Assembly: GCF_023051145.1 (NCBI RefSeq)
Contig: NZ_JALKFS010000005.1
Location: 4,233,733-4,297,732 of the forward strand
Length of the DNA stretch: 64,000 bases
Direction: 5' to 3'
Origin: Williamsia sp. DF01-3
Lineage (GTDB): Bacteria > Actinomycetota > Actinomycetes > Mycobacteriales > Mycobacteriaceae
Positions 34,838 through 45,206 of this stretch are shown one piece after another (the stretch's first letter is position 1; each line of letters begins with the position of its first letter). The notes below the pieces were generated by a model, which worked only from the letters and a program-made list of their open reading frames with translations, made no database searches and was not told where the DNA came from. Position numbers and translations under genes: made by a program.

Positions 34838-35332
34838 ATGACATCTTCCGTCCAGCCCCCTCGAAGCAGCCCCACCCACCGTTTCCGTCAGAAGCTCCCC
34901 GCAGGCCGGCTGGGCTCGGTGCTGTTCTCGATCGGGATGTGTGTGCGGGTCCCCTACTTCGCGACCATCGTCCCGTTCGTGAAGACGATGGAGCCCGGCA
35001 GATGCGAGGTCGTCGCGCCGAAGTGGTTCGGCGTCCACAACCACCTCGGCACGTTCCACGCCATCGCGGCGTGCAATCTCGCCGAGGTCGCGATGGGAAT
35101 GCTGATGGAGGCCACCGTGCCCAGCACGCACCGCTGGATCCCGAAAGGGATGGAGAGTCGCTACCTCGCCAAGGCCACCACCGGTCTGCATGCGGTCGCG
35201 ACGCTGTCCGAGCCGGTCGACTTCGCGGCATTGACCGAGGGATGCGAGGTGCCGGTGGACATCTCGATCACCGACCGCGACGGCGTCGAAGTGGTCCACT
35301 GCACCATCACCACCTGGGTGACGCCGTCATGA
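34838..35332 (+). CDS. Hotdog-fold protein, DUF4442 / PaaI-like thioesterase
   Basis: 164 residues. The pattern of the DUF4442 hotdog family is visible: RVPYFATIVPFVKTMEPGRCEV, then NHLGTFHAIAACNLAEVAMG with the acidic residue on the central helix, then KGMESRYLAKATTGL. Family members are thought to be acyl-CoA thioesterases or acyl-binding proteins. No ribosome site is obvious, only 24 bases separate it from the gene before, and an operator-like repeat fills that gap, so it may have its own regulated, nearly leaderless promoter. Confidence 0.85.
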   Translation: MTSSVQPPRSSPTHRFRQKLPAGRLGSVLFSIGMCVRVPYFATIVPFVKTMEPGRCEVVAPKWFGVHNHLGTFHAIAACNLAEVAMGMLMEATVPSTHRWIPKGMESRYLAKATTGLHAVATLSEPVDFAALTEGCEVPVDISITDRDGVEVVHCTITTWVTPS

Positions 35333-35400: not shown

Positions 35401-38052
35401 ATGAACGGTCAGCCGCGGAATATCGGGGTGGAAGAGGAGTTCCACCTCGTCGACCTCCGCACCCGCCGGTTGACTCCACGGGCACCTGAACTGCTCGAGG
35501 CCCTGCCGCATACGGGTGGCTATGTGGAGGAATTGCAACGCTGTGTCATCGAGGTGAACAGTGCTGTGTTCAGCAGGCTTTCGTCGTTACGTGATGATCT
35601 GCGTGAGCATCGTGCGGTCTTGGCGGACACGGCCCGCGAACTCGGGATCGGGGTGGTGGCCGCGGGCGCCATGCCTCTGGCGGTCCCCACCGAACTACAG
35701 GTCACCGAGACCCCGCGCTACCGCCAGATGCTGGCCGACTACCAACTCCTCGCCCGGGAACAGCTCATCTGCGGAACCCAGGTCCACGTCGATGTCGCTG
35801 ATCGCGACCAGGCGGTCCAGGTTGCGTGGCGACTGTCGCCTCACGTGCCGACCTTGCTGGCGCTGTCCGCGAGTTCACCGTTCTGGGCCGACGGTACCGA
35901 CACCGGCTATGCCAGCTCACGCACACTTGTCTGGCAACGTTGGCCCACCACGGGCCCATTTCTCCGTCTCGATTCCGCCGCTCACTATGACGCCGAGATC
36001 CAACGCCTGATCGACACCGGAGTCATCACCGACCCGGGAATGGTCTATTACGACGTGCGGCCCTCGGCGAGGCAGCCGACACTCGAACTCCGGGTCTGCG
36101 ACAGCTGTCCCTCCGTCGACACCGTCGCGCTCGTCGCCGGCCTGTTCCGGGCATTGGTGCAGCACGAGATCACGGCCATGGCCCACGGCGAACCCGGCGT
36201 CGAGGTGTCGCCCACGATCTATCGGGCGGCGTTGTGGCAGGCTGCGCGGTCGGGCTTGGAGGCAGACCTCGTCGACATGGTCGCCGCCAAACCGCGTCCG
36301 GCCGAGGACATGGTGCGCGAACTGGCGTCGATGCTGCAGCCGGAACTGGAGTCCTGCGGCGACTGGGAGACGGTCACCGAGCTCATCGATCAGGCGATCG
36401 GTGTCGGCAGTTCGTCGGCCAGGCAACGACGTGCGCTGCGGCGGCGTGGACATCTGTCGGACGTGGTGGACAGTCTGATCACCGAGACCGCCGGCGCTGC
36501 CCCACCCCCGCCGACAGTCGCCGACCCCGCCAACCCGATGCTCCACAGCTACAACACACGGCACGACAATCCACAACACGACAATCCACAACCCGACCTC
36601 TACGACGAGGTGTTCGACGCCGACGGCCGGGTACGGGGCGCATACCGCGGGGTCATCGACACTCTGACCACCCTGGGCCCGGTCACCCTGCGCAACCGGC
36701 AACATCACATGGAGAGCGAGCAGAGCGCGGGCGGGATGACCTTCCGGGTCAGCGGCCAGGACCGGGCACAGATCTTCTCCCTCGACGCGGTGCCGCGGAT
36801 CATCGAGGCCGATACCTGGGGGCGGGTGTCGAAGGGGCTGCGCCAGCGCGCCCTCGCCCTCAACGCCTTCCTCCTGGACGTCTACGGCGACCAGCAGATC
36901 ATCTCCGAAGGCGTCATCCCGCCTGAGATCCTGGACCGGGCCCCTGGGTACCGAAGCGCAGGCAATGCCCCACGGTGGCAACGGGTTCGGACCCACATCT
37001 GCGGGACCGATCTGGTGTCGACCGGACCGGGCGAGTTCTGTGTCCTGGAGGACAACCTGCGGGTGCCCTCGGGCGTCGCCTACGCGATCACCAACCGCGC
37101 TCTGATGACCCGGTTCCTCGGCGAGATCAGGTGTCACGACGAGATCCTGCCGGTCGACACCATGCCGCAGATGATCGCCGAGACGCTGGACGCCGCGCGT
37201 CCACCACGCGGCGATCCGAACGGCGCGATCGTGGTCCTGAGCGTCGGGTGGGAGGACTCGGCGTGGTTCGAGCACACGATGATCGCCGAACGCGCCGGGC
37301 TGGCCGTGGTGGACGCCGGCGACCTACGTGGTGACGGTAACCGGATCGTGGCGCGGATCCACGGCAAGGACGTGCCGCTCAGCGTCATCTACGCCCGCAT
37401 GGACGAGGACATGCTGCTCTCGTCGACAGGATCCGATGGTGCACCTCTGCGGCACCCGTTCCTCCGGGCGCTCGGAGCCGGAACGCTCGCGATCGCCAAC
37501 GCGCTCGGCAACGGGATCGCCGACGACAAGGCCGTGTACGCATTCGTCCCAGCGATGATCCGGTATTACCTGGGCGAGGAGCCGGCGATCGACCAGATCC
37601 CCACCTGGCTGTGTGCCGAGCGCGATCAGCGCGACCACGTGCTCTCCCGCCTGGACGAGATGGTCGTGAAACCGATCGACGGCCTCGGCGGCTCAGGGGT
37701 GATGATCGGACCCGAGGCCACCGAACAGGAGCTGGCCGAGCGGCGCAAAGACCTGATCGGGCACCCGGAAAGGTTTGTCGCACAAGACGTTGTCCGGCTG
37801 TCCACCCACCCGACGTTCGACGGTCAGGGGCTCTACCCGCACCACGTGGACCTACGTGCGTTCGTTCATCTACGGGCCGACGGGGAGGGCAACGTCTCGG
37901 CTCACATGGCGCCGGCGGCCCTCACCAGGGTCGCCCCCTCGGGCAGCATGATCGTCAACTCTTCCCGTGGCGGAGGCGGCAAGGACACGTGGATTCTCAC
38001 CGGAGAGTCGCGGGACCATGGCTGCCCGCAGACCCCAACGGAAAGGCGGTAG
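35401..38052 (+). CDS. Fusion of a GCS2-type carboxylate-amine ligase and a circularly permuted type 2 ATP-grasp enzyme
   Basis: 883 residues. Residues about 5-365 are a glutamate-cysteine ligase family 2 (YbdK-like) domain: IGVEEEFHLVD, GTQVHVDVADRDQAV and the late motif LELRVCDSCPSVDTVALV. A linker (about 366-400) contains a duplicated HDNPQ repeat. Residues about 400-870 are a circularly permuted ATP-grasp domain (YDEVFDADGRVRGAYRG, VGWEDSAWFEH, VVKPIDGLGGSGVMIG). Both halves form amide bonds from carboxylates using ATP, so the protein may make a dipeptide in two steps or ligate two groups. Three bases separate its stop from the AsnO-like gene. It most likely supplies the acid that the next enzyme amidates. 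Confidence 0.9.
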   Translation: MNGQPRNIGVEEEFHLVDLRTRRLTPRAPELLEALPHTGGYVEELQRCVIEVNSAVFSRLSSLRDDLREHRAVLADTARELGIGVVAAGAMPLAVPTELQVTETPRYRQMLADYQLLAREQLICGTQVHVDVADRDQAVQVAWRLSPHVPTLLALSASSPFWADGTDTGYASSRTLVWQRWPTTGPFLRLDSAAHYDAEIQRLIDTGVITDPGMVYYDVRPSARQPTLELRVCDSCPSVDTVALVAGLFRALVQHEITAMAHGEPGVEVSPTIYRAALWQAARSGLEADLVDMVAAKPRPAEDMVRELASMLQPELESCGDWETVTELIDQAIGVGSSSARQRRALRRRGHLSDVVDSLITETAGAAPPPPTVADPANPMLHSYNTRHDNPQHDNPQPDLYDEVFDADGRVRGAYRGVIDTLTTLGPVTLRNRQHHMESEQSAGGMTFRVSGQDRAQIFSLDAVPRIIEADTWGRVSKGLRQRALALNAFLLDVYGDQQIISEGVIPPEILDRAPGYRSAGNAPRWQRVRTHICGTDLVSTGPGEFCVLEDNLRVPSGVAYAITNRALMTRFLGEIRCHDEILPVDTMPQMIAETLDAARPPRGDPNGAIVVLSVGWEDSAWFEHTMIAERAGLAVVDAGDLRGDGNRIVARIHGKDVPLSVIYARMDEDMLLSSTGSDGAPLRHPFLRALGAGTLAIANALGNGIADDKAVYAFVPAMIRYYLGEEPAIDQIPTWLCAERDQRDHVLSRLDEMVVKPIDGLGGSGVMIGPEATEQELAERRKDLIGHPERFVAQDVVRLSTHPTFDGQGLYPHHVDLRAFVHLRADGEGNVSAHMAPAALTRVAPSGSMIVNSSRGGGGKDTWILTGESRDHGCPQTPTERR
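36562..36591 (+). repeat. 15-base in-frame tandem duplication in the fusion linker
   Basis: Two exact copies of CACGACAATCCACAA, encoding HDNPQ twice, exactly between the two enzyme domains. Length variation here would change only the linker. Confidence 0.85.
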
Positions 38053-38055
38053 CGA

Positions 38056-39861
38056 ATGTGCGGCATCAGCGGGGAGATCACCTGGGGCGGTGAGCGGCCC
38101 GATCTCGCGGCCGTCGCAGCCATGACCGAGACGATGACCGCTCGCGGACCCGACGGCGAGGGTGCCTACCTCCACCGCAACGTGGCCCTCGGGCACCGGC
38201 GACTGGAGATCATCGATCTGTCCGGCCGAGGTGCACAACCCATGGTCGACACCGCTCTGGGTCTGTCGCTGGTGTTCAACGGCTGCATCTACAACTATCG
38301 CGAGCTGCGCGATGAACTCGCGGGCCACGGCTACTCCTTCTTCTCGACCGCCGACAGTGAGGTGATCCTCAAGGCGTTCCACCGCTGGGGCGCCGACTGC
38401 GTCCAGCATTTCAAGGGCATGTTCGCGTTCGCGATCGTCAACACCGACACCGGTGAACTGACGCTGGCCCGCGATCGCCTCGGCATCAAACCCCTGTACA
38501 TCAGCGAGACGGCGTCGCGGCTGCGCTTCGCATCGTCCATCCCGGCACTGCTGCGCGCCGGTGGCGTCGACACCTCGATCGATCGCGTCGCGTTGCACCA
38601 CTACTTCACGTTCCATTCGGTGGTGCCCGCGCCGCACACCATGTATGCCGGTGTCCGCAAGTTGCCGCCCGCCACGGTCCGCACCATCACAGCCGACGGC
38701 ACATCCACCGAAAAGCGTTACTGGGAGCCGGTTTTCGAGCCTCATCCCGATCGCCTGAATTGGGACGAGGCGCAATGGGGCGAAGCCCTGATCGACTCCC
38801 TGCGGGTGGCGGTACGCCGGCGGATGGTCGCCGACGTCCCGGTCGGCGTGCTGCTCTCGGGCGGTATCGACTCGTCCCTGGTCGTCGCGCTGCTCGCCGA
38901 GCAGGGACAACGCGACCTCGCGACGTTCAGCATCGGATTCGACTCGGCCGGTGGCGAATCCGGTGACGAGTACGAGTACTCCGACCTCATCGCGAGCACG
39001 TTCAGAACCGACCACCACAAGATCCACATCGGCACCGACCGTCTGCTCCCCGCCATTCCAGGCACCGTCGCGGCGATGAGCGAGCCGATGGTCAGCCACG
39101 ATTGCGTGGCGTTTTATCTGTTGTCCCAGGAGGTCAGCAAGTCGATCAAGGTGGTGCAGTCCGGACAGGGCGCCGACGAGATCCTCGGCGGCTACGACTG
39201 GTATCCGCCCCTGGAGAACACTCCGCGCGAGGATGTCACGAAGGCATACGCCTCGGTGTTCTTCGACCGTTCACACCACGAGCTGAACACGTTGTTGCGC
39301 AGCGACTATCGCCTGGACCACGACCCCAGTTGGCAGTTCGCCTCCGAGCACCAGAACGCGCCGGGTGCCGCCACCGCCGTCGACGCGGCCCTGCGACTCG
39401 ACACCACCGTGATGCTGGTCGACGACCCCGTCAAACGCGTCGACTCGATGACCATGGCATGGGGTCTGGAAGGTCGCGTCCCTTTCCTCGATCACGAGTT
39501 CGTCGAGCTCGCGGCCACGTGCCCACCGGGGCTCAAACTGGCGCACGGCGGCAAAGGGGTGCTCAAGGAGGCCAGCCGCACCCTGTTGCCTGCTGAGGTC
39601 ATCGACCGCACGAAGGGCTATTTCCCCGTCCCCGGCATCCGCCACCTGGACGGTGGAGTCCTCGACCTGGTCACCGACACCTTGCGCGCCGAGTCGGCGC
39701 ATCGCCGCGCGTTGTACGAAGACGACGCCATCGCCGCACTGCTGGCCACCCCGAATCGGACTCGCACCACCCTGGGCTCGAACGCGCTGTGGCAGGTCGC
39801 CATGCTGGAGATGTGGCTACAGAGCATGGAGTCGATGACAGGCACGCCGGGGTCGAGGTGA
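38056..39861 (+). CDS. Asparagine synthase-like amidotransferase, resembling AsnO (N-acetylglutaminylglutamine amidotransferase)
   Basis: 601 residues. Class II glutaminase with Cys2 (MCGISGEI) and FNGCIYNYREL; synthase domain with PP-loop SGGIDSS near residue 271 and later GQGADEILGGYDWYP and LEGRVPFLDHEFVE. The ADSEVILKAFHRWG and GVRKLPPATV stretches resemble AsnO of the proteobacterial N-acetylglutaminylglutamine amide (osmolyte) pathway more than housekeeping AsnB. It should move ammonia from Gln to an adenylated carboxylate, perhaps of a glutamine dipeptide made by the upstream fusion enzyme. Its TGA overlaps the GTG of the peptidase gene. Confidence 0.85.
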   Translation: MCGISGEITWGGERPDLAAVAAMTETMTARGPDGEGAYLHRNVALGHRRLEIIDLSGRGAQPMVDTALGLSLVFNGCIYNYRELRDELAGHGYSFFSTADSEVILKAFHRWGADCVQHFKGMFAFAIVNTDTGELTLARDRLGIKPLYISETASRLRFASSIPALLRAGGVDTSIDRVALHHYFTFHSVVPAPHTMYAGVRKLPPATVRTITADGTSTEKRYWEPVFEPHPDRLNWDEAQWGEALIDSLRVAVRRRMVADVPVGVLLSGGIDSSLVVALLAEQGQRDLATFSIGFDSAGGESGDEYEYSDLIASTFRTDHHKIHIGTDRLLPAIPGTVAAMSEPMVSHDCVAFYLLSQEVSKSIKVVQSGQGADEILGGYDWYPPLENTPREDVTKAYASVFFDRSHHELNTLLRSDYRLDHDPSWQFASEHQNAPGAATAVDAALRLDTTVMLVDDPVKRVDSMTMAWGLEGRVPFLDHEFVELAATCPPGLKLAHGGKGVLKEASRTLLPAEVIDRTKGYFPVPGIRHLDGGVLDLVTDTLRAESAHRRALYEDDAIAALLATPNRTRTTLGSNALWQVAMLEMWLQSMESMTGTPGSR

Positions 39862-41873
39862 CACCGGCGGTCACAGGCAGCTCTGCGCAGCGTACGTCGG
39901 GCTCGACGACCTCGGACGACACCCGTCAGCGCCACAGCTACGGTGCGTCGGTGTCGCCGGGAGGAAAGGCGCTCGCCTACATCCTGGACGATGGCACCGG
40001 GTACCCGCGGGCAGTGCAGCGATCTCTCAGCAGGGCGGGCGCCGGACCGCTGCGGATGGTCGATCTGCCGTGCACCGGGCCGGTACGCAAACTGATCCAC
40101 TCCGCGGACGGGCACTGGCTGGCGTGTGAGGTCGCGCCCGGAGGCGGCGAACACCATCAGGTGTGGGTGGTGACCACCGACCCCCACGACACCGCCGCCC
40201 ACCGGGTGGCGGCCGCCGACGACTACGCGACGGTCGAGCTGATCGGGTGGGACGTGAACCGGGTGCAGCTCACCGCGACCGAGGCCGACGGAACCGCCCA
40301 CGCTCTCATCGCCGATCCCCAGTCGCAGTACGTCATCGACCTCGATGCCCGGGTGGGTGGGCACTTGGTCGATTCGTGGAAGGACGCCGCCCTGCTGCGG
40401 GTGGGACCACGTGGATATCGCGACATGTTGTTGCTGCGCAGGGACAATCGGCGTTCGGCGCAGTCCGATCCGCACGCCACGACCATCACCCCGCTGCTCC
40501 CCAACGACACCGGGGCGACGACCGACCAGGGTGTGATCCTCGACCAGGGCTACCAGCACTCGTCCCTGCTCTTCCCCGGCCTCGGCCTGCCGAAGCTCCA
40601 CAAAGACCTCGACAGCGTGCAGGCGCTGGTGCGCAGCGACTTCGACGCCAAGTTCCCCCGACTGCTCGGTATCGAATCCGCGCGGGAGGGTATCCGGTTC
40701 GCGGTCATCGCCGAGCGGCCGGACTGCGGTTTGGACGAATTCGCGCTCAGCTACGACCAGAGCACCCTGGCCATCCTGTGGAACAACAAGGGGCGCAGCG
40801 AGTTACAGGTGATGACACTGCCCGACCGCACGCTGCACCCACCGATCGAGTTGCCCGGTGCGGTTGTCGGTGAATTGTCGATCAGTACAACGGGTTCCCT
40901 GATCGCGATGACCGTGCAGGGTCCCGACCTCCCTCCCGAGGTGGGTCTGGTGAACTGGCGTGAGGCGCACTGGACTCCCCTTGACCACCCGGATGCCATC
41001 AGCCACAGCACCACGGATCGCCGCGGCACAAACCAGCCCGACCACGTCGAGTTCTTCGCCCGCGACGGGATGCCGTTGTCGGGCTGGCTCTATCACCCGG
41101 ACGACTCGGCGTCCCGGGCCGCTCGTGAGCGGCGGGCGGGCCAGGGTGGAGGCTCCGGCGCACAACCGGCACTCATCTACTTCCACGGCGGACCCGAAGC
41201 CCAGGCCCGGCCCGACCACAGCTTCCTGTTCCCCGCCCTGCTCGAGGCAGGCATCACCGTCCTCGCGGCGAACGTGCGCGGCTCGGGAGGTTCCGGCCGG
41301 CTGTTCGCCCACGCCGACGACCGGTACGGCAGATATGCCGGGATCAACGACGCCGCGGACTGCGCGGCTTTCCTCGTCCGCGAAGGTTATGCCGATCCCG
41401 ACCGGATCGCTTGCGCAGGAAGGTCGTACGGCGGATACCTGACGTTGGCATGTCTGACCTTCCACGCCGAGACGTTCGCGGCCGGCGTGGCGATCTGCGG
41501 GATGAGCGATCTTCAGTCGTTCTACGAGAACACCGAACCATGGATCGCAGTGGCCGCGTACACGAAGTACGGACATCCCGACGCCGACCGGGAACTGTTG
41601 CGCGACCTGTCGCCCATCCATCGCATCTCCGAGCTACGTGCGCCGCTGCTGGTGATCCACGGCCGACACGACACCAACGTCCCGGTCAGTGAATCCGAGC
41701 AGGTCGTCGAGTCCGCTCGCGCACACGGGCAGAAAGCCGATCTGATCCTCTTCCCCGACGAGGGGCACGAAATCGTGAAACGGGACAATCAGCGTGTGCT
41801 CACCGAGGCCCTGCGAGACTGGGTGCTCGACGCATTCGCCACACCCGGCTCACCCGGCACCGGTAGCCGATAG
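39858..41873 (+). CDS. S9 family (prolyl oligopeptidase-like) serine peptidase
   Basis: 671 residues from GTG at 39858, chosen because it overlaps the preceding stop (GTGA); an ATG at 39789 would overlap by 73 bases. N-terminal part (to about 400) is beta-propeller-like; the C-terminal alpha/beta-hydrolase domain has HGGPEAQ (oxyanion region), nucleophile Ser in GRSYGGY near residue 520, Asp in HGRHDTNVP and His in DEGHEI. No signal peptide, so it acts in the cytosol on short peptides. Placed after two peptide-making enzymes, it may trim or recycle the product; in proteobacterial NAGGN operons a peptidase of another family holds the same place. Confidence 0.88.
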   Translation: MTPAVTGSSAQRTSGSTTSDDTRQRHSYGASVSPGGKALAYILDDGTGYPRAVQRSLSRAGAGPLRMVDLPCTGPVRKLIHSADGHWLACEVAPGGGEHHQVWVVTTDPHDTAAHRVAAADDYATVELIGWDVNRVQLTATEADGTAHALIADPQSQYVIDLDARVGGHLVDSWKDAALLRVGPRGYRDMLLLRRDNRRSAQSDPHATTITPLLPNDTGATTDQGVILDQGYQHSSLLFPGLGLPKLHKDLDSVQALVRSDFDAKFPRLLGIESAREGIRFAVIAERPDCGLDEFALSYDQSTLAILWNNKGRSELQVMTLPDRTLHPPIELPGAVVGELSISTTGSLIAMTVQGPDLPPEVGLVNWREAHWTPLDHPDAISHSTTDRRGTNQPDHVEFFARDGMPLSGWLYHPDDSASRAARERRAGQGGGSGAQPALIYFHGGPEAQARPDHSFLFPALLEAGITVLAANVRGSGGSGRLFAHADDRYGRYAGINDAADCAAFLVREGYADPDRIACAGRSYGGYLTLACLTFHAETFAAGVAICGMSDLQSFYENTEPWIAVAAYTKYGHPDADRELLRDLSPIHRISELRAPLLVIHGRHDTNVPVSESEQVVESARAHGQKADLILFPDEGHEIVKRDNQRVLTEALRDWVLDAFATPGSPGTGSR

Positions 41874-41896: not shown

Positions 41897-42622
41897 GTGT
41901 CCACACACCAGTCGCAGCCACCGTTGGTCTCGTACCTGAGCGGCGAGCGCTCGGGGTCGGCGCAGGCGAGCGTGCTGGGCGATCTGCGGCGGGTGATCCT
42001 CGACGGCAGCGCGGCTCCGGGTACCGCCATCCCGGTCGGTGAGGTGGCAGATCTCTTCGGTATCAGCGCGATCCCGGTGCGTGAGGCGCTCAAGACCTTG
42101 ATCGGCGAAGGCCTGGTGGGCCATCAGACCGGCGGGGGTTACTTCGTCGCGCAGCTCACCCTCACCGAGTTGAAAGAGATCTACTTCGTCCGGGGCGTCC
42201 TCGAGCAGGCCGCCTTGAGCCGAGCATGCGAGCTGGCCACCGACGACGACCTGGACCGCGCGCGCAGAGAGCACGAGGCACTGCAGGAAGCGACCATCGC
42301 CGGCGACAGGCGCGCGTACCACGTGCATTCGCGTCTGTTCCATCGCGCACTCGCCGCGCCGTGCGGCATGCTTCGCCTGCTCAACATGTTCGACTCCACA
42401 TGGGACATCACCGAACCGTTCCAGGTGATGCAGCGGGCGACCGGGCCCACCCAGCTGCAACTGCACAGCGACCACGAGAAGATGATCGACGCCATGGCCA
42501 GGCGTGACGCCGGCGACTTGATCTCGATCGCACAGGCCCACCATCGCCGGCTCGAATCGGTGATCATCGAGACCGCCGCCGAGCTGAACGTGGCTCGTGA
42601 GGATCAGCCACCGGTTCGCTGA
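41897..42622 (+). CDS. GntR-family regulator, FCD subgroup
   Basis: 241 residues from GTG with AGAGGAAA upstream. N-terminal winged helix (about 25-90, ending IPVREALKTLIGEGLVGHQTGGGYFV) and a helical FCD ligand-binding domain (about 95-230) with the metal-site pattern of Asp and His residues (FHRAL, HSDHEKMIDAM, AQAHHRRL). It lies 165 bases before the NCS1 permease gene and probably regulates it and the racemase, most likely in response to a small carboxylate or hydantoin-related compound. Confidence 0.9.
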   Translation: MSTHQSQPPLVSYLSGERSGSAQASVLGDLRRVILDGSAAPGTAIPVGEVADLFGISAIPVREALKTLIGEGLVGHQTGGGYFVAQLTLTELKEIYFVRGVLEQAALSRACELATDDDLDRARREHEALQEATIAGDRRAYHVHSRLFHRALAAPCGMLRLLNMFDSTWDITEPFQVMQRATGPTQLQLHSDHEKMIDAMARRDAGDLISIAQAHHRRLESVIIETAAELNVAREDQPPVR

Positions 42623-42637
42623 TTCGCCCGCAATTCG

Positions 42638-42656
42638 CGCTCTACCAGAGCGTTTC
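42638..42656 (+). terminator. Terminator after the GntR gene
   Basis: Stem CGCTCT-ACC-AGAGCG at 42638-42652 followed by TTTCT, 16 bases after the stop. Confidence 0.6.
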
Positions 42657-42796
42657 TGGTCGGTGCTCGCAGAATATATCGCATTCCCTGGCGTTGACCC
42701 GGCCGATTTGTCACGTACGTAATCAGGGTGCAACACAGCGAACTTAGGTTTTTCTCAGCCGCAAAGGAACTCCGAAACAACTCGAGGATGCCGCCC

Positions 42797-44359
42797 ATGA
42801 CAAACGTCAAGACTCCAGGTTCTGAACCCGAGATACCGACCAATCACAACAATGCAGCGGGCGAGAGCGTCATCAAGCTCGGTTACGACCAGCGCCTCAC
42901 CAACGAGGATCTCGCGCCACTGCGACACCAGACGTGGACCTGGTACAACATCTTCGCGTTCTGGATGTCCGATGTTCACAGCGTCGGCGGATATGTCTTC
43001 GCGGGCAGCCTCTTTGCGCTGGGCATCGCCGCCTGGCAGGTCTTGGTCGCCCTGGTGATCGGCATCGTGATCGTCAACCTGCTCTGCAATCTGGTCGCGA
43101 AACCGTCCCAGCAGGCGGGTGTGCCCTATCCGGTGACGACCCGCGTTGCCTTCGGTGTCCGCGGCGCCAACATCCCGGCCATCATCCGCGGTCTGATCGC
43201 AGTGGCCTGGTACGGGATCCAGACCTATCTCGCCTCGGTGGCGTTCGGTCTCCTTGCTCTCAAGTTCTGGCCGTCACTCGAGAAGTACAGCGAGAGTGGC
43301 GACATGGCCTTCCTCGGTCTGTCACCACTCGGCTGGGCCGGCTTCATGCTGATGTGGGTCCTGCAGGCGATCGTCTTCTGGAACGGCATGGAGACCATCC
43401 GCAAGTTCATCGACTTCTGCGGGCCCGCGGTTTACGTGGTCATGGTCATTCTCGCCGGCTACCTCATCTGGAAAGCCGGCTGGGACAACGTCAGTTTTGA
43501 TCTGTCGGTCGGCCCCAGCAAAACCGGCTGGGCATCGATCACCGCTCTGATCAGTGCCATCGCCCTTGTGGTGTCGTACTTCTCGGGCCCGATGCTCAAC
43601 TTCGGCGACTTCTCCCGCTACGGCAAGTCCTACAGCGAGGTCAAGAAGGGCAACTTCTGGGGACTGCCGGTCAACTTCTTGTTCTTCTCGATCCTGGTGG
43701 TGTGCACGGTGTCCGCGGGCGCCACGGTGATCGGTACGGACGAGGCGGGCAACATCATCACCGATCCGGTGCACATCGTCGACAAGATCGACAACACCAC
43801 TGCTGCCGTCCTGGGTGTCCTGACATTCGCCATCGCGACCATCGGGATCAACATCGTCGCCAACTTCGTCTCCCCCGCATTCGACTTCTCGAATGTGGCA
43901 CCGACCAAGATCACCTGGCGCGCAGGCGGAATGATCGCAGCGGTCGGTTCCATCCTCATCACCCCGTGGAACCTGTACAACAATCCCGACGCCATCCACT
44001 ACACACTCGACACGCTGGGTGCGGTCATCGGGCCGCTGTTCGGGATCCTGATCGCCGACTTCTACCTCATCAAGAAGCAGAAGATCGAGGTCGACGACCT
44101 GTTCACGATGAACGAGAACTCCATGTACTACTTCCGCGGCGGCGTGAACCCGGTTGCGGTGGTGGCGACCATCGTCGCGGCGCTGGTCCCCATCGGAGTG
44201 GTCATCTGGGGCACCAGCTACCAGGCCAGCTTCACCTGGTTCATCGGTGCGGCAATCGGATTCGTCATCTACATGCTGGGTATGAAGCTGCTTCCCACCG
44301 AGCTGATCTATGGCACCCGGACCCGAGCTGCCGAGCCGTCTGAGGCGTCGGCCATCTGA
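42797..44359 (+). CDS. NCS1-family nucleobase/hydantoin:cation symporter
   Basis: About 520 residues from ATG at 42797 (GAGG about 9 bases upstream; ATGs at 42788 and 42728 are alternatives). Twelve membrane segments and the NCS1 signatures NEDLAPLRHQTWTWYNIFAFWMSDVHSVGGY near the N-terminus and GPMLNFGDFSRY mid-protein. Family members carry uracil, allantoin, cytosine or hydantoins with sodium or protons. Next to a hydantoin racemase, hydantoins (as for Mhp1) or allantoin are the likeliest cargo. The preceding gap (42657-42796) has TTGACC and the palindrome ACGTACGT at 42713-42720, a possible GntR site. Confidence 0.92.
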   Translation: MTNVKTPGSEPEIPTNHNNAAGESVIKLGYDQRLTNEDLAPLRHQTWTWYNIFAFWMSDVHSVGGYVFAGSLFALGIAAWQVLVALVIGIVIVNLLCNLVAKPSQQAGVPYPVTTRVAFGVRGANIPAIIRGLIAVAWYGIQTYLASVAFGLLALKFWPSLEKYSESGDMAFLGLSPLGWAGFMLMWVLQAIVFWNGMETIRKFIDFCGPAVYVVMVILAGYLIWKAGWDNVSFDLSVGPSKTGWASITALISAIALVVSYFSGPMLNFGDFSRYGKSYSEVKKGNFWGLPVNFLFFSILVVCTVSAGATVIGTDEAGNIITDPVHIVDKIDNTTAAVLGVLTFAIATIGINIVANFVSPAFDFSNVAPTKITWRAGGMIAAVGSILITPWNLYNNPDAIHYTLDTLGAVIGPLFGILIADFYLIKKQKIEVDDLFTMNENSMYYFRGGVNPVAVVATIVAALVPIGVVIWGTSYQASFTWFIGAAIGFVIYMLGMKLLPTELIYGTRTRAAEPSEASAI

Positions 44360-44390
44360 CCGGATCAACCCGATCCATATCTTCGATCGC

Positions 44391-44422
44391 GGGTGGCCGG
44401 CTGCGTCCGCAGCCGGTCACCC
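44391..44422 (+). terminator. Strong hairpin between permease and racemase genes
   Basis: 15-base-pair stem with one G-U pair (44391-44405 with 44408-44422) and a 2-base loop, 32 bases after the permease stop. It has no T tract; it may reduce read-through into the racemase gene. Confidence 0.6.
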
Positions 44423-44459
44423 GGGCCGTTCTCGTGCCGGGACAGGAATACTGGTTGTC

Positions 44460-45206
44460 GTGCGTATCAGCGTCATAAATCCCAATACCACCGTGTCGAT
44501 GACCGAGCAGATCGCGGCCGCGGCGCGGTCGGTGGCGGCGCCGGGAACCGAGATCGTCGGCGTCACCTCCTCGATGGGGCCCGCTTCAATCGAGTCGCAC
44601 TACGACGAGGCCTTGTCCGTTCCAGGCGTGATCGAAGCAATTGTCCGCAGTGAGCGCAGCGAGCATCCCGCCGACGCCTACGTGCTGGCCTGCTTCGGCG
44701 ACCCTGGACTCGATGCAGCCCGCGAAGTGGCCTCGGTTCCTGTGGTCGGAATCGCCGAAGCCGCGATGCACACCGCGTCCTTGCTCGGCCGCACCTTCTC
44801 GGTGGTCACCACGCTCGGCAGAACGATCGGTCGCGCCGAAGAGCTCGCCGAACGGTATGGACTGACGGGCCGCTGCCGCGGCATCCACGCGTGCGAGATC
44901 CCGGTGCTCGAACTCGAGACCAATCCGGACACCGCAGGCATCCTGGTGGAGGCGTGCCGTTCGGCCGCCGAGGCGGACGGCAGCGACGCGATCGTCCTGG
45001 GTTGTGCCGGTATGGCCGATCTTGCACAGGTCATCAGCGCCAAGATCGGCATTCCTGTGGTCGACGGAGTCGCCGCGGGCACCTTACTGGTCCAGTCGTT
45101 GGTCACCATGGGTCTGCGACCCCGGAACACAGGCGAACTCGCACCGCCGATCCCGAAGGTCTACCGCGGCCTGCTCGAGCCTTTCGGGCGAGGTGCGATC
45201 AGCTGA
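44460..45206 (+). CDS. Hydantoin racemase / Asp-Glu racemase superfamily
   Basis: 248 residues from GTG at 44460, the family length. Begins RISVINPNTT, a hydantoin racemase signature; paired catalytic cysteines Cys78 (LACFGDPG) and Cys182 (LGCAGMADL). Interconverts the two forms of 5-substituted hydantoins (or allantoin) by proton shuffling at the chiral carbon. No hydantoinase or carbamoylase lies in the window, so downstream steps must be encoded elsewhere. The upstream extended frame to 44310 is rejected. Its end overlaps the convergent gene at 45199 by 8 bases. Confidence 0.88.
   Translation: MRISVINPNTTVSMTEQIAAAARSVAAPGTEIVGVTSSMGPASIESHYDEALSVPGVIEAIVRSERSEHPADAYVLACFGDPGLDAAREVASVPVVGIAEAAMHTASLLGRTFSVVTTLGRTIGRAEELAERYGLTGRCRGIHACEIPVLELETNPDTAGILVEACRSAAEADGSDAIVLGCAGMADLAQVISAKIGIPVVDGVAAGTLLVQSLVTMGLRPRNTGELAPPIPKVYRGLLEPFGRGAIS

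Follow-up and report, generated by a model that had tools for sequence, protein, structure and literature searches.

Whether the amidotransferase AsnO can serve a pathway in which both of its customary partners have been exchanged is the question raised by a three-gene operon of Williamsia sp. DF01-3. The known pathway to the compatible solute N-acetylglutaminylglutamine amide (NAGGN) consists of AsnO (TIGR03104), the GNAT/ATP-grasp ligase Ngg (TIGR03103) and an M42 peptidase, and is represented by asnO-ngg of S. meliloti and PA3459-PA3461 of P. aeruginosa. In the window, that is, the whole stretch of 64,000 nucleotides of contig NZ_JALKFS010000005.1 analysed here, AsnO stands between a fusion of a GCS2 domain with a circularly permuted ATP-grasp (CP-ATP-grasp) domain and an S9 peptidase. 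We consider that this operon is probably the actinobacterial version of the NAGGN pathway. It has a recurring gene order, characteristic protein families and clades of its own, and it and Ngg exclude each other at the locus.

The operon and its three proteins

The three genes are co-directional on the forward strand. The first (35401..38052) encodes the fusion, a predicted ATP-dependent peptide (amide) ligase of 883 residues; the second (38056..39861), after a gap of 3 bases, encodes AsnO (601 residues); and the third (39858..41873) encodes the S9-family serine peptidase (671 residues). The last gene was given a GTG start, chosen among the GTG codons at 39789, 39813, 39858 and 39951, and its overlap of 4 bases with AsnO exists because the start was taken at 39858. 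The first-pass annotation had described this arrangement with gaps of +3 and -4, and the open reading frames and Pfam matches agree with it.

The window AsnO, which contains Asn_synthase and GATase_7 domains, scored 928 bits against the NCBIfam profile TIGR03104 (trio_amidotrans; cut-off 570) and 427 bits against the generic asparagine synthase profile, and S. meliloti 1021 AsnO is 59.2% identical to it over 98% of its length. The first-pass annotation would have been overturned by a grouping with ordinary AsnB. The second Asn_synthase protein of the genome, AsnB, reached only 274 bits against TIGR03104; this difference and the placement of AsnO in the tree rule out that the window protein is an ordinary AsnB. 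TIGR03104 was over its cut-off in 36 of 101 relatives, and the scores listed for the relatives were bimodal (at least 897 bits vs at most 363), the lone intermediate score of 500 bits belonging to part of an AsnO that is divided between two contigs. At E 1e-150, AsnO was found in 106 of 394 genomes of the class, with a single match in 105 of them when the three best candidates per genome were scored. Cys2 (codon 38059..38061) is invariant and, as in class II amidotransferases generally, would be the N-terminal glutaminase nucleophile after loss of Met1. Because the TIGR03104 match is at the equivalog level, we infer that the substrate of the window AsnO is a peptide acid ending in glutamine, whose carboxylate it amidates. 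The known enzyme is summarized in PMC8070244, citing Sagot 2010, as transferring the amide nitrogen of glutamine to the second glutamine of N-acetyl-Gln-Gln.

The fusion is the sole ligase in the operon. Its GCS2 domain (residues 9-286; 35425..36258) exceeds the PF04107 cut-off with 188.5 bits, and its CP-ATP-grasp domain (residues 465-845; 36793..37935) matches PF14403 (CP_ATPgrasp_2) at full length (383 bits; profile positions 1-374 of 374). Relatives in PDB are the YbdK entries 1r8g and 1tt4 and the CP-ATP-grasp protein 3n6x, which matches across the whole domain with 324 bits. The GCS2 fold usually couples the gamma-carboxylate of glutamate with an amine. The family-conserved residues E11-E13, E44, E51, R71, H129, R174, R220, E229 and R231 are present in fused and single copies alike, and their roles are presumably catalytic. 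In sharing family and conserved residues, the operon GCS2 resembles the YbdK-type carboxylate-amine ligases; however, it lies in its own clade, is mostly fused to CP-ATP-grasp, is linked to AsnO and has clade-specific residues (N53, S158 and P221), which adjoin the conserved ones and differ from those of generic GCS2s. The fusion did not qualify as EgtA of ergothioneine synthesis (TIGR03444, 33.7 bits vs cut-off 370.8).

The peptidase exceeded the PF00326 (Peptidase_S9) cut-off with 158.8 bits and retains Ser, Asp and His in the motifs GRSYGG, HGRHD and DEGHE. Its acylaminoacyl-peptidase-like catalytic domain, and only that domain, is near PDB sequences that include aminoacyl- and acyl-peptide hydrolases. 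The likeness to these hydrolases would suit an N-blocked peptide as substrate, without proving it. The operon thus shares with the NAGGN pathway the same AsnO equivalog and the same three-gene logic of ligase, amidotransferase and peptidase, whereas it has neither a GNAT/ATP-grasp Ngg nor an M42 peptidase. M42 is absent from the operon, S9 being in its place, and an Azospirillum M42 query found no match in 17 kb around it. Ngg was not found in the window genome either at E 1e-60 or by profile, the best TIGR03103 score being 35.6 bits against a cut-off of 569.

The first-pass annotation had proposed a pathway of the NAGGN type whose ligase and peptidase are different ones, and this holds in that the operon is a conserved unit in a genome with no Ngg over cut-off. 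Its wording that two ligase domains replace the acetyltransferase one has to be refined: Ngg itself has two domains, GNAT and another ATP-grasp, and related operons use GCS2 alone or CP-ATP-grasp alone.

Judged from the protein families, the reactions, the osmolyte role and the role of the peptidase may be as follows. The fusion would make a dipeptide-like acid from glutamate or glutamine and ATP; AsnO would turn the C-terminal carboxylate into an amide with glutamine as nitrogen donor; and the S9 peptidase would hydrolyse the product, tuning its pool. The dipeptide would then probably be built and broken down by enzymes unrelated to those of NAGGN.

Partners of AsnO and the history of the operon

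Wide flanks were taken for 83 regions spread across families rather than for all 106 AsnO genomes, and further loci came from plasmid records and 80 named genome contigs (the best 80 of 580). The resulting 161 loci are a sample and not a census; a species may be represented more than once, 3 of the 80 named AsnOs are identical to others in the set, and loci shorter than 7 kb in the first set or 9 kb in the named set, as well as Frankiaceae loci L198-L203, were left out of the count. Its weak rows are L124, in which CP-ATP-grasp is a fragment of 120 residues, L071, which ends at a contig edge, and L221, with only 2.1 kb upstream.

Ngg was present in 49 of the 161 loci, and neither GCS2 nor CP-ATP-grasp occurred in any of these 49. 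The 112 non-Ngg loci contained GCS2 and/or CP-ATP-grasp in 98 cases (both in 65, GCS2 only in 25 and CP-ATP-grasp only in 8, one of them a fragment). S9 was likewise found in 98 of the 112, vs an S9-like gene in 1/49 Ngg loci, whereas same-strand M42 was found in 24/49 Ngg loci and 0/112 non-Ngg loci. In a neighbour survey of 154 AsnO loci, the S9 cluster occurred in 93, in 90 of them as the next gene (+1) on the AsnO strand, and the GCS2/ATP-grasp cluster also in 93, with 84 members at -1. These fixed positions and the 161-locus counts rule out a chance neighbourhood; the first-pass annotation would have fallen had the three genes not occurred together elsewhere, and their co-occurrence is wide. 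Among the 25 largest clusters inspected in the survey, no other partner was spread across the families of non-Ngg loci. At the genome level, Ngg was found in 8/8 Ngg-type genomes vs 1/57 other genomes. Plasmids of Azospirillum and Shinella are annotated with the known AsnO-Ngg-M42 set, and both set types occur within Mycobacterium, Micromonospora and Geodermatophilaceae.

Four loci deserve separate mention. In the 5.9 kb of the short locus L126, outside the count, Ngg is missing and an M42-like gene runs in the opposite direction. L069 and L070, which form class E, a second AsnO lineage in one genus of family f15, have GCS2 encoded on the opposite strand, and S9 was not found at either. The operon of L204 comes from a metagenome bin assigned to the proteobacterium Nevskia, and its GCS2 is nearest the Mycobacterium copies; this bin assignment is probably wrong.

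Quick trees, with Shimodaira-Hasegawa-like approximate likelihood ratio test (SH-aLRT) support only, were built for AsnO and for the ligase domains. In a tree of 110 rows (109 AsnOs and an AsnB outgroup, after removal of the partial or short L071, L072, L139 and L126 and of identical sequences), 68 non-Ngg AsnOs formed one clade with support 94 and the Ngg-type proteins around it. In a tree of 186 AsnOs, the Ngg-less clade held 119 rows with support 96; L069, L070 and L145 fell outside, and the branch dividing all Ngg-type rows from the rest was weak (39). The operon GCS2s formed a clade (98) distinct from generic paralogues, with one G115 paralogue inside and four GCS2s from AsnO loci outside (those of L069 and L070 and the second ones of L118 and L216). 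The operon CP-ATP-grasps likewise formed a clade of their own (99), within which the single-domain copies made up one sub-clade (99). Unlike them, the generic CP-ATP-grasp paralogues, including two of the window genome, lay outside.

We propose that the NAGGN pathway had its ligase and peptidase displaced, with a reshuffling afterwards. Ngg and M42 would have given way to a new ligase and peptidase while AsnO was conserved; most simply, this happened once, at the root of the large actinobacterial clade. A single displacement is the simplest reading, and it is not proven because L069, L070 and L145 lie outside the clade and the dividing branch has a support of 39. Several lineages would later have reduced the ligase to one of its domains, GCS2 or CP-ATP-grasp. 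GCS2-alone loci occur in Streptomyces and Streptosporangiaceae, and 9 of 10 GCS2-only genomes tested had no CP-ATP-grasp at E 1e-3, the tenth (G283) having one placed among the generic ones; CP-ATP-grasp was accordingly lost in some lineages. The CP-ATP-grasp-only genomes G096, G087 and G090 contain only distant GCS2s (34-41% identical), and G078 has no GCS2 match at E 1e-3.

An arginine switch in AsnO and the identity of the product

We compared the columns of 41 Ngg-type and 65 other AsnOs (65/68, with L069, L070 and L145 excluded). Although 199 columns were the same in at least 95% of both groups, 7 separated the groups at 80/80. Column 570 was strict, with L/I in Ngg-type AsnOs and R in the others; column 574 was nearly strict, with R in 38, N in 2 and G in 1 of the former vs G in all 65 of the latter. 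Among 186 sequences, with classes E and X counted separately, residue 570 was L/I in 64/64 Ngg-type AsnOs, whose residue 574 was R in 57, N in 5, G in 1 and gapped in 1. The R570/G574 pair was found in 113 of 117 non-Ngg AsnOs, the exceptions being L145 (Y/G), L206 (R/D), L275 (H/G) and L263, which is gapped in the alignment and otherwise reads RTTLG. In class E, G574 is combined with A, Q or E at position 570. In the window, residues 570-574 (R..G), the class-diagnostic switch, are encoded at 39763..39777. The change from LTPLRG to RTTLG sits just before the last helix of the AsnO model (predicted local distance difference test score 88.9). In an alignment with AsnB, K520 of AsnO corresponds to K449, a catalytic residue of AsnB. 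As the R/G rows largely form one clade, the switch is most likely one event held under constraint and not repeated convergence.

Three AsnOs have unusual sequences or settings. In Kocuria loci L240 and L243, AsnO stands alone, is nested in the non-Ngg clade and has H570/R574; we expected these proteins to be served by an Ngg elsewhere, and none was found, nor was a fusion, matches reaching 41% identity only. The AsnO of L216 (Micromonospora foliorum) looks recombinant: most of it is 93-100% like the fusion-type copy of M. noduli, and towards the C terminus it is 88% like L069, of class E; this mosaic could be real recombination or an assembly join.

We regarded two accounts of the product, NAGGN itself or a non-acetylated, possibly gamma-glutamyl, amide, as about equally likely. 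Either one compound is reached by two routes, or there is an undescribed relative of NAGGN. The second account is quite conceivable, though we would not give it an even chance: GCS2 (and/or CP-ATP-grasp) together with AsnO would yield a non-acetylated amide, e.g., gamma-glutamyl-glutamine amide, with the gamma-glutamyl cap replacing the acetyl group and R570 binding its alpha-carboxylate. The operon has no acetyltransferase domain, GCS2 alone suffices in the Streptomyces and Streptosporangiaceae loci, the conserved GCS2 residues are kept beside the clade-specific N53, S158 and P221, and the R570/G574 pair follows the ligase type. On the other hand, CP-ATP-grasp-only loci keep the R/G AsnO even though G078 lacks a GCS2 match, and four genomes of the non-Ngg clade have an Ngg elsewhere. 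The first-pass annotation had suggested a non-acetylated or gamma-linked product. This is not established: the absence of an acetyltransferase domain, the GCS2 fold and the residue switch speak for it, and the partition of two AsnO columns only and the four genomes with Ngg elsewhere speak against it.

These four genomes favour NAGGN as the product, which would require the fusion to use an N-acetylated substrate from elsewhere (e.g., N-acetylglutamate or N-acetylglutamine tied to arginine metabolism) or a stand-alone acetyltransferase to act first; we see this as a reasonable possibility that falls a little short of even. Each of G096, G490 and G491 (Modestobacter) and G481 (Ca. Mycobacterium methanotrophicum) has Ngg over cut-off together with a single over-cut-off AsnO that falls in the non-Ngg clade; the DNA read on either side of Ngg (1.5 kb, or 6 kb in G096) contains no AsnO. 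The closest CP-ATP-grasp and GCS2 matches of G481 were 41% and 32% identical, like generic paralogues as judged by identity; Ngg therefore looks like the only dedicated ligase of this genome, whose AsnO-S9 pair seems to work with it. However, the NAGG formed in these four genomes might remain unamidated, and the G481 AsnO has D rather than G at 574, a pair otherwise nearly fixed as R570/G574. The small number of AsnO columns that separate the types also favours NAGGN itself.

A stand-alone GNAT near the operon in Frankiaceae could supply the acetyl group. It was found in 10 of 92 loci, all of group f32 (16 f32 loci examined) and 9 of 10 on the AsnO strand (L198-L203, L121, L122, L128 and L129), and in 3 of the 80 named loci, Frankiaceae or f32 (L219 being the same contig as L203). 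Against this, GNAT is no conserved neighbour outside Frankiaceae, Frankia locus L228 shows none in 12 kb, and GNAT had no match in the window genome, in a search run without a positive control. A hidden acetyltransferase as a general part of the operon was rejected, as a linked GNAT occurs in Frankiaceae only and none was matched in the window genome.

It is more tentatively, and with some doubt, that we propose for actinobacteria a hitherto undescribed family of dipeptide osmolytes that are amidated at the C terminus and not acetylated (gamma-glutamyl); they would be made by GCS2 and/or CP-ATP-grasp ligases and an AsnO with an arginine shifted by four residues (574 -> 570), and recycled by S9. 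If this is true, NAGGN belongs to a modular class of compounds whose ligases can be exchanged around a constant AsnO. With either product, the operon would be a second, widespread way to an AsnO-dependent osmolyte, in Streptomyces, Frankia, Micromonospora, Pseudonocardia and other genera of soil, plant and industrial interest, and a natural test of how amidotransferase specificity follows the upstream ligase. We predict that searches by Ngg similarity will miss such loci and that a product called NAGGN from AsnO alone may be wrong.

Exceptions, published accounts and neighbouring genes

Several observations weigh against reading the operon as a variant of the NAGGN pathway. Loci with GCS2 alone, with CP-ATP-grasp alone and with neither ligase exist; therefore, no single ligase is obligatory. 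Ngg is present elsewhere in G096 and, among 12 more non-Ngg genomes picked for their oddity, in 3, and two AsnOs are over cut-off in Micromonospora noduli (G486) and one Kocuria (G479), so that the exclusion of Ngg is not absolute at the genome level. The fusion is also found without AsnO. It was matched at E 1e-120 in 44 genomes of the class, one of which (G243) has GCS2 alone, and AsnO was present in 36 of the 44; that is, the fusion occurred in 36/106 AsnO genomes vs 8/288 without AsnO. In these eight, TIGR03104 had no match even at E 1e-60, and in four genomes of family f43 (L284-L287; G144, G176, G190 and G161) the fusion is directly followed by S9 in the absence of AsnO. Amidation is thus not always part of the use of the fusion, and the two-gene form should make a non-amidated product. 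Nine readable fusions away from an AsnO fall inside the operon clades (the L290 fusion is unreadable), so AsnO was probably lost or moved. In G396 and G456, which by their identical coordinates equal the Planobispora genomes G483 and G484, the fusion and AsnO are on different contigs.

Orphan Ngg genes of L294, L298 and L299 lie near trehalose-6-phosphate synthase-like genes, with the sole AsnO of the genome elsewhere; L294 also has a trehalose-6-phosphate phosphatase-like gene, these genes having been recognised by eye.

A description of the fusion-AsnO-S9 set was not found among the open-literature papers listed in our searches. The 2009 amidoligase survey by Iyer and colleagues may list the fusion. 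We conclude that the operon represents a variant of the NAGGN pathway that is both real and conserved, with a plausible mechanism and no report in the literature searched. The account of the Frankia "asnO-ngg" cluster in PMC5563000 gives an AsnO more than 60% identical, a "putative Ngg" less than 15% identical and a dipeptidase between them. The named and likely Frankia loci here are of the window type; in them, the fusion encoded upstream of asnO is the probable ligase, and the passages on the cluster in that account do not mention it. Because several Frankiaceae loci here carry GNAT after S9, this suggests that the "putative Ngg" was the stand-alone GNAT. NAGGN was identified by nuclear magnetic resonance from Micromonospora provocatoris, with asnO and ngg named, according to PMC8146288; as the two set types both occur in Micromonospora, the product of the fusion type cannot be read from this finding. 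FRAAL1888 is called NAGGN-related, with a response to polyethylene glycol, in PMC5768760; its locus number makes it unlikely to be the AsnO gene of the ACN14a-sized genome, and it was not used. The osmotic compound described in PMC10513789 is an anthranilate derivative and is unrelated.

The surroundings of the operon could point away from osmoprotection altogether, to an amidated peptide for signalling, storage or nitrogen reserve. A GntR regulator, an NCS1-type permease and a hydantoin-racemase-like gene stand beside the operon in about 7 loci of the family of the window. However, this clustering of permease and racemase is limited to that family, most genomes have one AsnO, and the set types alternate in Mycobacterium, Micromonospora and Geodermatophilaceae. 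We regard a non-osmotic role as improbable and retain the osmolyte reading. In the window, the regulator, permease and racemase-like genes occupy 41897-45206, and a DUF4442 protein is encoded at 34838-35332, upstream of the operon; this set of four neighbours recurs in about 7-8 loci within that family.

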